In this document: positions 9,561 through 12,449 of the stretch, piece after piece | Layout of the letters: the number at the start of each line of letters is the position of its first letter | How positions within the stretch are numbered: position 1 is the stretch's first letter | NCBI GenBank assembly: GCA_016871575.1 | Contig: VHCW01000052.1 | Location: 1-32,439 of the forward strand | Origin: Verrucomicrobiota bacterium | GTDB taxonomy: Bacteria; Verrucomicrobiota; Verrucomicrobiia; Palsa-1439 | Reading direction: 5' to 3' | Length of the DNA: 32,439 bases | The notes under the pieces: model-generated | Seen by the model: only the letters and a program-made list of their open reading frames with translations | Told to the model about the DNA's origin: nothing | Databases searched by the model: none | Program-made: the position numbers and the translations under genes

Positions 9561-9962
9561 CTACGGCGTCTGGATGGTCAATTGCGGAAAGCTGGGTCGA
9601 AAATCAGCCGGATTGCGTGTGAGCAGTCCTTGAAAGCGCATGGCAAATCCGCCGATCAACACATCTGCCAACGGACGTTTCCGTGCCGTCCCGGTCCGCC
9701 GTCCGACCACATGGCGATTCCAAGCAATTGCTGACGCGCGCGTGTCAGTCTCCGTCCACGGTTCGCGCCAATCAACACATGCGTGATAGAGAAATTCTTG
9801 CTGCGCCTTCACATCACCGTCAAAGACCGGCGACAATTCCACGTAACTGACCGGACAAACGATCAACCCTTCCGTGCGCAGGCGATCCAGCAGTTGAGCG
9901 AACGAAATGCCATAAGTCGGATCGGCTTCCGCCACATCAATCAGCAAACACGTGTCCACCAC
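9561..9962 (-). CDS. PIN-domain toxin (VapC-like)
   Basis: 133 residues. VapC toxins are Mg-dependent ribonucleases that block translation. Acidic residues of the PIN active site are in place: Asp3 in VDTCLLIDV, Glu42 in SYVEL, Asp99 in LADVLIGG, and an Asn/Asp pair near 116-119 in LLTRNPADF. The start is GTG at 9962; an in-frame TAG lies immediately upstream, so the gene cannot begin earlier. It follows the small upstream gene by 8 bases, the order antitoxin-toxin that is usual for vapBC. Cognate target RNA unknown. Confidence 0.85.
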   Translation of the reverse strand: MVDTCLLIDVAEADPTYGISFAQLLDRLRTEGLIVCPVSYVELSPVFDGDVKAQQEFLYHACVDWREPWTETDTRASAIAWNRHVVGRRTGTARKRPLADVLIGGFAMRFQGLLTRNPADFRPSFPQLTIQTP

Positions 9963-9970
9963 CTACGCCA

Positions 9971-10189
9971 TCAATCAGCCTCGCCGGCGCGGAGTTCGGC
10001 CATCCAGTCATTGGTTCGGCGCGGTTGGGGATGAATCCGGCGCGCGAATCCCAACATCGCCCGGGCCCCCAGCGGCAAGGAGGAAGCGGCCGGTGCGGTT
10101 TCTTGCGCTTCCAGCCAAGCCAGCAACTGGCGCGCGTGCGCGTCATCAAGACTGCGCACTTTTTCCAAGACCATATCCACTGTGCTCAT
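9971..10189 (-). CDS. Antitoxin of the VapC-like toxin (VapB-type, putative)
   Basis: 72 residues starting at ATG 10189 (MSTVDMVLEKV). The N-terminal half is helical and charged, the second half basic (GFARRIHPQPRRTNDW) and the end acidic (AELRAGEAD). No standard AbrB, RHH or Phd signature can be pointed to, so the antitoxin role rests on position, size and the operator at its promoter. An upstream in-frame extension to 10324 runs through the promoter and is rejected. Confidence 0.65.
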   Translation of the reverse strand: MSTVDMVLEKVRSLDDAHARQLLAWLEAQETAPAASSLPLGARAMLGFARRIHPQPRRTNDWMAELRAGEAD

Positions 10190-10247: not shown

Positions 10248-10276
10248 TTGTTCACCATATCCGGCCTTGCTACTCT
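10248..10276 (+). promoter_or_regulatory. Candidate promoter of the SET-domain operon
   Basis: TTGTTC (10248-10253), 17 bp, TACTCT (10271-10276). The -10 box is identical to that of thiE. A transcript would begin near 10283, leaving about 235 bases before the ATG at 10519, unlike the leaderless arrangement elsewhere in the window. Confidence 0.45.
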
Positions 10277-10334
10277 CTGCGCCGAAGGAGAAACCAGCCA
10301 CATCAAACTGAACCAGTAACTCAAAACCTATTTG

Positions 10335-10435
10335 CGTAGCTTCGGCTGCGGGTCTCGTTAGAAAACCGCGAATTTTCAGGAGAGGACCCACCGGAGCCGC
10401 GCCCCACAAGGGCGCGGCTTGGCGTATTCCTCTCC
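10335..10435 (+). ncRNA. Candidate structured leader RNA or small RNA
   Basis: Stems seen by eye: a six-pair hairpin with a UUCG tetraloop (10335-10350); GAAAA/TTTTC around CCGCGAA; a perfect ten-pair hairpin AGCCGCGCCC/GGGCGCGGCT with loop CACAA (10395-10419); and a perfect eight-pair stem GGAGAGGA (10379-10386)/TCCTCTCC (10428-10435) that encloses it. GGTC (10351-10354) can instead pair with GACC (10385-10388), which shares bases with that outer stem, so two folds exclude each other, as in riboswitches and attenuators. I do not recognise a known RNA family. A DNA-level repeat is the alternative. Confidence 0.4.
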
Positions 10436-10518
10436 AAGGCGCTTCGCGGTGCCTGTAACGGGGGTGCGTTGAGTTCGCGCCCCTTTGTTTTGTCCGCAGT
10501 CTGGCGCGCGCCAGATAA

Positions 10519-11376
10519 ATGTCCGCCCACCACACCGCCCAAGAACTCGCCGCACTCCGCCAACGGGTAGATGCCCTCTACACGCCGTTGGAGGACGCTG
10601 TTCGGGAACTTCATTCCCGTCGGCGTCGTTTCGCGGGACGCACGCCGGGGCGCGATTGGTTGCCCACCGGTATTCCCGATCATTCGCAGGGCTACGCTTT
10701 TCTTTGTCGTCACGTCGCCACCCCTTGCTTCGAGACCCTGCACTTTCTGGAATCGGCCAAGCAGGCGGGACTGTTACCGGTTCTTGGAGATTTTTCCGAA
10801 GACAAATTCTGCACCAAGAACGCCACAAAGCTCGCGCTTGGTCGTATGGGGTTTCAGTGCGGGTTCAACCGCCACGGACACCGGCTGGTCGAGTTCGTCA
10901 ATGTGGTGCGTTTGGACCAGCGGGCTTGCCGGATTGGCGACCTGAAGACGCTCTGGAACCAGAACCTCATTGCCTTTCACCATGAACTCCTCGCCCACGC
11001 CCTCAACAGCAACCGGCATCCCTTCGTGCATGATTACTCCGCCCAATGCACTCATGCGGGCAACTGTCCTACCGGGTTTTACCGTCATTATCTGCTACGA
11101 ATCTGTCTGGCCGATCTCATCTTATTTGAGGACTTCTTGCTCGACGAACAGGAGCTGCCCTTCACCCGCGACATCGTGCTGCCCGCCTTTGATGCAGTGA
11201 CCGCTGAGTACGGCCTCAAGCCTCTCATCGTTCGCCTCACCTCAGCGGAAGAAGAAACCTCCCCACACTGGCTCTGGTATCCGGGGGAGTTAAAGCCTTT
11301 TGTCCAAGATGCTCTTCGATCTGATGCCGGCGTCCGTCTTTCGCATCACCGCCGAAAGGTTGAACCATGCGGATAA
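10519..11376 (+). CDS. Protein of unknown function in the SET-domain operon
   Basis: 285 residues, apparently soluble and cytoplasmic: no signal peptide or membrane helix. I do not recognise a family. The N-terminus (1-40) is a likely helix. The middle has scattered Cys and His residues (DKFCTKNA, GFQCGFNRHGHR, AFHHELLAHA, HDYSAQCTHAGNCPTGFYRH); the last pattern, with Cys-x5-Cys and several His, could bind a metal. A helical stretch ILFEDFLLDEQELPF follows, and the C-terminus is basic (HHRRKVEPC). The start ATG follows a perfect 16-base palindrome by three bases. The gene overlaps the SET-domain gene by ten bases, so the two are probably made together and may act together, for example as substrate or adaptor and methyltransferase. 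Confidence 0.7.
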   Translation: MSAHHTAQELAALRQRVDALYTPLEDAVRELHSRRRRFAGRTPGRDWLPTGIPDHSQGYAFLCRHVATPCFETLHFLESAKQAGLLPVLGDFSEDKFCTKNATKLALGRMGFQCGFNRHGHRLVEFVNVVRLDQRACRIGDLKTLWNQNLIAFHHELLAHALNSNRHPFVHDYSAQCTHAGNCPTGFYRHYLLRICLADLILFEDFLLDEQELPFTRDIVLPAFDAVTAEYGLKPLIVRLTSAEEETSPHWLWYPGELKPFVQDALRSDAGVRLSHHRRKVEPCG

Positions 11377-11936
11377 AAAAACATATCCCGCCGCTGCGGA
11401 TTGAAATCAAACCATCCAAGATACTTTGGGGACAAGTTGGGTTGTTCGCCGCGTGTCCCTTACGGAAAGGAGCATTGGTTGCTGCCGCCAAGGACTTTGC
11501 TGAGGTATTCGTTCCCCAAGCGAAAGTCCGTAAGATGGATCGAGTCACGCAGGACAGAATAATCGCTCATTGTGGCGCGACGAGAGGCGGGTATTTATTG
11601 CCGCGCCATTGCGACCTGAATCGGTTGTCGATCCAATGGTACATGAACCACAGTTGCGACCCGAACGTGGGATTTGATCAGAAGGACAATTTCGTGGCTT
11701 TGCGCAAAATCGTGGCCGGTGAGGAGTTGGTATTTGATTACGGGACTCTGCATGAGAATCCAAAATGGCGGTTGGCGTGCAAATGCGGCACGTCGAAATG
11801 TCGCGGTGTTGTAACTGGCAGTGATTGGAAGCTGCCGGAACTCCAGCGGCGCTATCAAGGTCATTTTGTGTCGTATCTTCGGGCGAAAATCCGGAAAGCA
11901 ATTCAGGGTGAAAACAAGACCGCAAAAGCGAGTTGA
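11367..11936 (+). CDS. SET-domain protein lysine methyltransferase
   Basis: 189 residues. SET domains transfer a methyl group from S-adenosylmethionine to lysine. The expected elements occur in order: an N-terminal ILWGQVGLFA strand-turn (19-28), the cofactor motif NHSCDPN (94-100), GEELVFDYG with the catalytic Tyr (118-126), and a post-SET zinc motif Cys-x-Cys-x4-Cys (138-145), which with Cys97 would complete a zinc site. No chromatin-type pre-SET domain is present; size and layout are those of small bacterial SET proteins. The substrate is unknown; the unknown protein encoded just upstream with overlapping ends is one candidate. A Lys/Arg-rich tail ends the chain. The next gene starts three bases after the stop. 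Confidence 0.88.
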   Translation: MRIKKHIPPLRIEIKPSKILWGQVGLFAACPLRKGALVAAAKDFAEVFVPQAKVRKMDRVTQDRIIAHCGATRGGYLLPRHCDLNRLSIQWYMNHSCDPNVGFDQKDNFVALRKIVAGEELVFDYGTLHENPKWRLACKCGTSKCRGVVTGSDWKLPELQRRYQGHFVSYLRAKIRKAIQGENKTAKAS

Positions 11937-11939
11937 TCC

Positions 11940-12449
11940 GTGACTAGCTTTCGTGGCCTGTTCAAGCGCAGTTCGGAGTTAGCGCTCGGCGTCTCCACAA
12001 TGACCGTCATCGCTTTCGCCTTCGACTACGTTCTTTACCCGGCAGTGATCTACTGGCTTGGCCTTGTGATTGGCGGGGTGGTGATGGCCGGACTGTCGTT
12101 TCTGGTTTGTTGGTTGCTGTTGTGGTTCTACGACCGCAGCGGACGCGACTGGCTGGGGATTGAGGCGGCCAAGCAGATCCGGGAATACGTCGGACATTCG
12201 CGCTGGCGACGCTGGCTGGCGTGGGTGTTGCGCCAAGGTGACTTTGTGGTGTGCGTCGCGCTCTCCATCAAGTTCGACCCGTTCATCACGACGGCCTACA
12301 TGCGGCACGGGGCGTTCAACGGGATGAGCCGGCGCGACTGGCGCATCTTCTGGGCGAGCTGGTTCATCGGCAACGCCTACTGGACGTTCGTCTGCTTCGG
12401 CGGCGTCACAACCCTTCAATGGCTCTGGCGCGCAGTCATGCCGTCATAG
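11940..12449 (+). CDS. Membrane protein of unknown function
   Basis: 169 residues with GTG start directly after the SET gene. Two membrane helices lie close together near 22-40 and 42-65, a cytoplasmic basic stretch with SRWRRWLAWV follows, and further hydrophobic segments occur near 100-112 and 137-160. The motif IKFDPFITTAYMRHGAFNGMSRRDWRIFWASW is conserved-looking, with a positively charged loop between two helices. I cannot name a family. The three-base spacing makes it part of the operon with the SET-domain gene. Confidence 0.7.
   Translation: MTSFRGLFKRSSELALGVSTMTVIAFAFDYVLYPAVIYWLGLVIGGVVMAGLSFLVCWLLLWFYDRSGRDWLGIEAAKQIREYVGHSRWRRWLAWVLRQGDFVVCVALSIKFDPFITTAYMRHGAFNGMSRRDWRIFWASWFIGNAYWTFVCFGGVTTLQWLWRAVMPS

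Follow-up and report, generated by a model that had tools for sequence, protein, structure and literature searches.

A multi-copy family of structured leader RNAs with a terminator-like hairpin, represented upstream of a SET-domain operon in a Verrucomicrobiota bacterium

The window (the whole stretch of DNA analysed, 32,439 nucleotides of a Verrucomicrobiota bacterium) contains an operon on its plus strand that is preceded by a long leader. The first gene of the operon (10519-11376, +) encodes an unclassified protein of 285 aa, for which no Pfam, PADLOC or NCBIfam match was obtained and only one homologue was found among 285 other genomes of the class. The second gene (11367-11936, +) encodes a SET-domain protein (PF00856, E 1.9e-10), and since it overlaps the first by 10 bases (11367-11376), the two are probably translationally coupled. 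A possible third gene with a GTG start (11940-12449, +; 169 aa, unclassified) follows. Just upstream, and divergent to the leader, lie two small genes (9561-9959 and 9971-10186, both on the minus strand) resembling a VapC-type toxin and its antitoxin, the VapC call being weak (NCBIfam VapC, E 0.005). One consensus promoter in this region, at 10224-10196, faces the VapC-like pair.

The leader had been described in a first-pass annotation as a long structured region with mutually exclusive folds. The elements named there, i.e. a UUCG hairpin, an eight-pair stem, a ten-pair hairpin and a competing GGTC (10351-10354)/GACC (10385-10388) pairing, are all present where it placed them. They belong to a single structured RNA element (10281-10490, +) composed of hairpin H1, three consecutive helices (P1, P2 and P3), a short P4, an apical hairpin P5 and a terminator. 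H1 (10335-10350, +) is the UUCG-capped hairpin and carries the most conserved sequence of the family described below (GCGUAGC-UUCG-GCUGC). P1 pairs 10353-10360 (UCUCGUUA) with 10456-10463 (UAACGGGG) (+), and all six of its modelled pairs are compensated in alignment A3 (see below); the last bases of its 3' arm are also the first of the terminator stem. P2 is formed by 10366-10372 (CCGCGAA) and 10443-10449 (UUCGCGG) (+), with compensatory changes in 7/7 pairs. P3, the eight-pair stem, joins GGAGAGGA (10379-10386) to TCCTCTCC (10428-10435) (+) in eight perfect pairs, and P5, the ten-pair hairpin, joins AGCCGCGCCC (10395-10404) to GGGCGCGGCT (10410-10419) (+); both helices covary.

Two elements at the 3' end were absent from the first-pass annotation. 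The first is a terminator-like hairpin, GGGGGUGCG-UUGAGUU-CGCGCCCC (10460-10483, +), followed by a U-rich tail, UUUGUUUU (10484-10491), with a stem that covaries across copies. The second is the hairpin UCUGGC-GCGC-GCCAGA (10500-10515, +), which ends three bases ahead of the start codon. The terminator loop (10469-10475 in the window) is conserved throughout the family, as AGUAAGU in type I and UUGAGUU in type II copies; as a plain terminator does not need a conserved loop, this one may bind something. The U tract of most copies (10484-10491 in the window) is often interrupted by G or C (UUUUGUUU, UUCGUUUU, UUUGUUUU), as would be expected of a leaky terminator.

The folding energy of the leader is -91.9 kcal/mol, which corresponds to z = -4.9 relative to 200 dinucleotide-shuffled sequences, but the reverse strand scores equally, and energy alone is therefore no proof of an RNA. 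The strand and the reality of the element were settled by covariance model R1, built from six other copies with the window copy excluded, which matches the window element over its full length on the plus strand (85.2 bits, E 2.1e-17). The predicted transcription start lies at ~10280-10284. The promoter proposed at 10248-10276 fared less well: promoter-like -35 (TTGTTC, 10248-10253, +) and -10 (TACTCT, 10271-10276, +) boxes are indeed present, but their score (6.5, compared to a shuffled mean of 7.1) does not stand out by itself and they were missed by a consensus scan. What speaks for them is solely their position, at which other copies have better boxes (e.g. TTGACG-18-TATTCT at locus L011).

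A further property overlooked in the earlier annotation is that the leader is multi-copy. BLAST against its own genome returned nine places including the leader itself. The closest paralogue is 88% identical over 10281-10486, while the seven others share only ~50 bases around H1; when read, these places proved to be full-length relatives with the same plan and altered stems. Model R1 detected 16 copies in this genome at E < 1e-14, and copies in 14/39 genomes of near relatives, in 36/286 genomes and 24/137 genera of the class (about an eighth of the genomes), and in 13/388 genomes of a sample drawn across the phylum. A scan for exact matches to a pattern covering H1 and the adjoining flank favours type I copies with GTCC; combined with the class search, it added 99 loci, of which 80 came from named genomes. 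Most of these 80 were Verrucomicrobiota, with some Kiritimatiellota, Lentisphaerae and Phycisphaerae; a few loci came from metagenome bins labelled Deltaproteobacteria, Acidobacteria or Actinomycetota, labels that may be binning errors. Altogether ~137 distinct copies were collected from Verrucomicrobiota and related phyla, mostly in metagenome-assembled genomes. One copy is carried by a cultured strain, Geminisphaera colitermitum TAV2 (L142, NZ_ABEA03000166.1), ahead of a gene for a putative DNA methyltransferase, and the family is thereby open to experiment. In one genome (G008), three contigs (L035, L041, L050) break at an identical point, between AAACCATA and TCAGCTTCGGCTG at the start of H1, as if assembly had halted inside the repeated leader.

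Neither the window element nor the copies on 19 other loci matched any Rfam family at gathering scores, and permissive thresholds gave chance-level matches only, which agrees with the earlier statement that no known riboswitch class could be recognised. No description of a sense leader RNA of this kind was found in the open-access literature. Judged by sequence comparison, the window leader is thus one copy of a previously uncatalogued structured RNA family of ~200 nt.

The fold of the family was examined in two alignments. A4 comprises 96 distinct sequences, obtained by the pattern scan and the class search. Standard pairs make up 96.0% of its cells, and both partners have changed in 37/46 pairs; its covariation score of 0.556 compares with 0.181 for shuffles and 0.05-0.11 for slid partners. 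In A3 (43 sequences, including those of the window's type), the corresponding values are 95.1%, 37/46 and 0.597; in slid-partner controls 34-56% of cells are paired. It should be noted that the model used for fitting the alignments has this same structure, so that they are biased towards it, although the model was trained on six sequences only. The covariation is overwhelming, and on this comparative evidence the main fold of the family is real. Two sequence types can be distinguished. In type I copies, H1 is followed by CUGUCC and the terminator loop resembles AGUAAGU. Type II copies, to which the window element belongs, number about a dozen in several genomes and are marked by GGxCU after H1, GAAAACCGC...UUUUC, GGCUUGGCGU and a UUGAGUU loop.

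Several pairings compete with this fold. Alt2 joins the bases just after H1 to bases at or near P3; in the window it pairs 10350-10355 (GGGUCU) with 10384-10389 (GGACCC) (+) and takes in the GGTC/GACC pairing of the first-pass annotation. It closes an early 5' self-fold that competes with P1 and P3, is present in the predicted minimum free energy (MFE) structure of transcripts ending before ~10425, and shows compensatory changes in other copies, so that the claim of mutually exclusive folds is strengthened. Outside the GUCC copies the partners co-vary (GCUGUCU/AGACAGC, GGUCUC/GAGACC, GGGCU/AGCCC, UGGCC/GGCCA), while departures in L020, L031 and L067 are uncompensated, and the support for Alt2 is therefore good but not perfect. 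Of the 99 GUCC copies, 62 have GGAC where it would be expected, compared to a chance level of 19%. The self-fold also contains HA, in which GAAAA (10361-10365) pairs with UUUUC (10373-10377) (+) and the P2 strand CCGCGAA lies in the loop; its counterpart in type I copies, CGAAA...UUUCG, is conserved. The other P2 strand lies in the loop of HB, GGCGC (10438-10442) with GUGCC (10449-10453) (+). HB is nearly invariant, with few compensated exceptions, and the permutation gain is small (4.45 compared to 4.35 pairs), so it is retained as a suggestion with weak statistical support.

MFE folding of growing transcripts of the window leader gave Alt2 and the early hairpin up to ~145 nt (ends before ~10425), then P2, P3 and most of P1 from 180 nt, and next the terminator. 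Ordered refolding was also predicted for the copy at L092. These folds represent equilibrium at each length and are not a kinetic simulation. The alternative folds covary and are predicted in the sequence, yet overlap with the terminator stem is limited to the outer pairs of P1, and an antiterminator strand is not clearly discernible in the RNA. Through these shared outermost pairs, P1 could weaken and Alt2 strengthen termination, which is offered as a suggestion only.

Copies of the family are consistently placed ahead of same-strand genes: of the ~126 copies for which sufficient sequence follows, 119 have an open reading frame on the same strand that begins within 130 nt of the terminator, and the spacing is tight (median 35 or 70 nt). 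This placement lends support to the cis-regulatory reading of the first-pass annotation. The idea that the leader is a device of the SET-domain operon was, however, not upheld. No copy was found near SET homologues at 14 loci in 13 other genomes, and the family is used by many genes. A control element dedicated to the first gene of the operon was likewise rejected, as this gene is a near-orphan and its sole homologue (L172) has no copy. Taken together, these loci indicate that the leader stands outside any SET system and was placed before the window operon.

In 78/128 copies tested, a third strand is present beyond the terminator. It is complementary to the 3' half of the element (the P3 and P2 strands plus GGUGCCUG), with up to nearly 30 pairs. 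Comparison of duplex energies gave a mean of -37.7 kcal/mol for cognate and -28.7 kcal/mol for non-cognate combinations, and 0/20,000 permutations were as low; without the constant GUGCCUG part, the means were -23.3 and -17.5 kcal/mol, respectively. The cognate strand ranks first in only 15/78 cases because related copies cross-pair. Folded alone, the element adopts P1-P2-P3, whereas in the MFE structure of the full leader of third-strand copies, the third strand displaces the 5' strand, which resumes its self-fold. Third-strand copies also have a hairpin ending no more than three bases before the ATG in 64/72 cases, compared to 14/47 in the other class, and a Shine-Dalgarno-like sequence in 10/72, compared to 19/47. 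In the window copy a third strand is lacking (z = 0.5), and a hairpin near the ATG is present. As the third strand is transcribed only past the terminator, it cannot decide the termination of its own transcript and must act later, in translation, processing or stability, or in resetting the RNA.

The type of gene behind the leader differs sharply between the two classes. Defence genes (restriction-modification [R-M], BREX, Dnd, Hma) stand behind ~57/73 third-strand copies, counted from BLAST cluster representatives and not by a per-protein scan, compared to 6/46 others, two of which (L050, L118) probably do have a third strand. For this association, Fisher p = 1.5e-12, but the copies share ancestry and come from related genomes, so that they are not fully independent and p-values are indicative. 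According to Pfam, the first gene behind third-strand copies encodes an N6_N4 methylase in 26/73 cases; ResIII, C5 methylase, MmeI, HsdR, Mrr, BrxA, RadC and EcoRI methylase were also found. PADLOC type III methyltransferase models matched in 28 third-strand copies, and scans of cluster representatives added type I, II and IIG R-M, DndC, HmaA, HmaB, DrmD-like helicases and TmtA. By a simple hydropathy rule, signal-peptide-like starts occur in 22/47 genes behind copies without a third strand, compared to 4/72 behind those with one. As copies mostly precede restriction and DNA-modification genes in related bacteria, the leader is probably a shared switch for them. The reverse association, from methylase family to leader, was rejected as a strong one: for a methylase family often found behind the leader, only 3/30 loci in other genomes carry it, which indicates that the leader is not essential to those genes. 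Two copies of the same genome as the window (L009:1501-1703 and L013:1501-1702) precede paralogous MORN-repeat lipoprotein genes, and a third related gene (L049, genome G001) also has a copy, so that leader and gene seem to have been duplicated together. Three other type II copies (L045, L046, L052) are located ahead of methyltransferase-type genes, and with this context a defence role of the window operon is possible.

In the reading that we consider reasonably probable, the window leader would belong to a new family of leader RNAs that act in cis, contain their own intrinsic terminator and serve as the shared attenuator of a regulon. Sequence comparison shows a promoter-proximal start, H1, the P1-P2-P3-P5 architecture, a terminator hairpin, a same-strand gene, multiple copies and a competing 5' self-fold, while the promoter, termination and read-through are predictions. 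According to energy folding, the nascent RNA would first form the 5' self-fold of Alt2 and HA, which the 3' half would then invade to give P1-P2-P3 beside the terminator. Most transcripts would end at the terminator as a ~200-nt RNA. The balance would be shifted by a shared trans factor or condition, allowing RNA polymerase to reach the gene, with the signal probably being read through the conserved H1 and the A-rich 5' segment. In third-strand copies, the read-through RNA is predicted to refold, its 3' half pairing with the third strand and its 5' half resuming the self-fold. Ahead of defence genes, the third strand and the AUG-flush hairpin would add a second layer of control after transcription, at the level of translation, processing or stability. 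In the window copy, the core, the terminator and the pre-AUG hairpin are present but the third strand is not, and only the attenuator step is therefore proposed for it.

A broader interpretation, to which we give about one chance in three and which is thus put forward tentatively, is a phylum-wide immunity RNA regulon. One RNA core would keep R-M, BREX, Dnd, Hma and exported-protein genes behind a terminator and would respond to a shared trans signal, which might be a failure of normal termination or the take-over of the host by an infecting phage; three-strand exchange would reset the RNA after read-through and control translation via the AUG-flush hairpin, and the SET operon would be an uncharacterised member.

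Other explanations were weighed against the attenuator. As the terminator would release a ~200-nt RNA, a small RNA could exist alongside the leader role. The stronger form of this idea, that the terminated RNA is itself the product (a multi-copy trans-acting small RNA or a protein sponge, with read-through incidental and, in third-strand copies, possible pairing with the neighbour's mRNA near its start codon), appears rather unlikely. It would account for the promoter-like sequence and terminator of each unit, the discrete size, the 16 paralogues, and the conservation of the unpaired A-rich 5' segment and the terminator loop; but the tight spacing to a same-strand gene, the better fit of the third strand to its own copy and the dependence of gene type on leader type tie the RNA to its neighbour in cis. 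A metabolite riboswitch of an undiscovered class seems improbable. Such an RNA would likewise be a conserved, covarying, terminator-linked leader with alternative folds, yet conservation here is confined to one hairpin and single-stranded segments with no evident junction pocket, an antiterminator stem is absent, and the R-M, BREX, Dnd and exported-protein genes have no common pathway; with such a mixture of defence and exported proteins, no ligand suggests itself. A leader peptide was also considered, as the 5' segment of some copies terminates in ...AAC CAR TAR, which looks like Asn-Gln-stop, and was rejected because there is no in-frame ATG and the motif is lost in distant copies.

The same order of parts is found in ToxIN (PMC5772629), and many of the neighbouring genes encode potentially self-harming nucleases, so the RNA could act like an antitoxin in an operon of the type III toxin-antitoxin style, binding the downstream protein and holding it in restraint. 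This we regard as very improbable, since one core stands before unrelated proteins (methylases, helicases, DndC, BrxA, lipoproteins, MORN and SET proteins) and the RNA, by eye, is one non-repetitive ~200-nt fold with no short tandem repeats. Among the Pfam and PADLOC matches listed for the downstream genes (methylases, helicases and others), no ToxN/AbiQ/CptN-type nuclease was present. The least credible explanation is a mobile or dispersed repeat (MITE- or REP-like) that is gene-adjacent by chance, for which there is hardly any room left even though the family has many copies per genome, a patchy distribution (36/286 genomes) and many hairpins. The first-pass annotation had named many near-identical copies as the sign of a repeat; 16 copies do exist, but the closest shares 88% identity and all others have diverged much further. 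This strong divergence within a genome, the compensated stems and the end of homology at the promoter, with no shared flanks, argue for a paralogous regulatory family, as does the fixed orientation to the next gene. With the probes used, mobile elements gave no copies: IMG/VR had no match to the H1-plus-flank pattern, and plasmid and phage records had none to one type I copy.

As a candidate attenuator, the family resembles known terminator-containing attenuators and riboswitches in being a 5' leader with mutually exclusive folds and a terminator-like hairpin just before the gene. It differs from them in matching no Rfam family, in having no clear antiterminator, and in its third strand past the terminator, its up to 16 copies per genome and the unrelated genes it precedes. 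The D12-methyl RNA motif is a candidate motif found upstream of D12-class DNA methyltransferase genes, and thus also a structured RNA ahead of DNA methyltransferase genes; the copies tested here match no Rfam family. Type III operons such as ToxIN share the order of promoter, structured RNA, terminator and protein gene, as well as a link to phage defence, and in ToxIN the terminator between toxI and toxN sets the RNA:protein ratio (PMC5772629); the present family differs in having no tandem RNA repeats, no ToxN-like nuclease among the matches listed and one core combined with many unrelated proteins. R-M genes are otherwise controlled by proteins and antisense RNAs, such as the RptR repressor and the EcoRI antisense RNA, which limit their expression (PMC3874152, PMC12255303). 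These regulators are DNA-binding proteins or antisense RNAs from reverse promoters, whereas the RNA described here is a sense-strand leader found across many defence systems.

How bacterial anti-phage systems are held in check and released is poorly understood (PMC12255303), and one RNA family ahead of many unrelated defence operons would represent a common control point. The family would, in addition, offer a clear example from nature of three-strand RNA refolding in a fixed order. Should the link to defence not hold, it is still a large, strongly covarying RNA family that is missing from Rfam 15.

Finally, another class of cis-regulatory RNA was detected close to one of the copies in the same genome: a DUF805 RNA (RF03081, 70 bits) at L012:2580-2649, ~0.9 kb downstream of the leader. 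The genome also contains three reverse-transcriptase genes (PF00078), at G000:C5:71229, C156:5104 and C16:10198.
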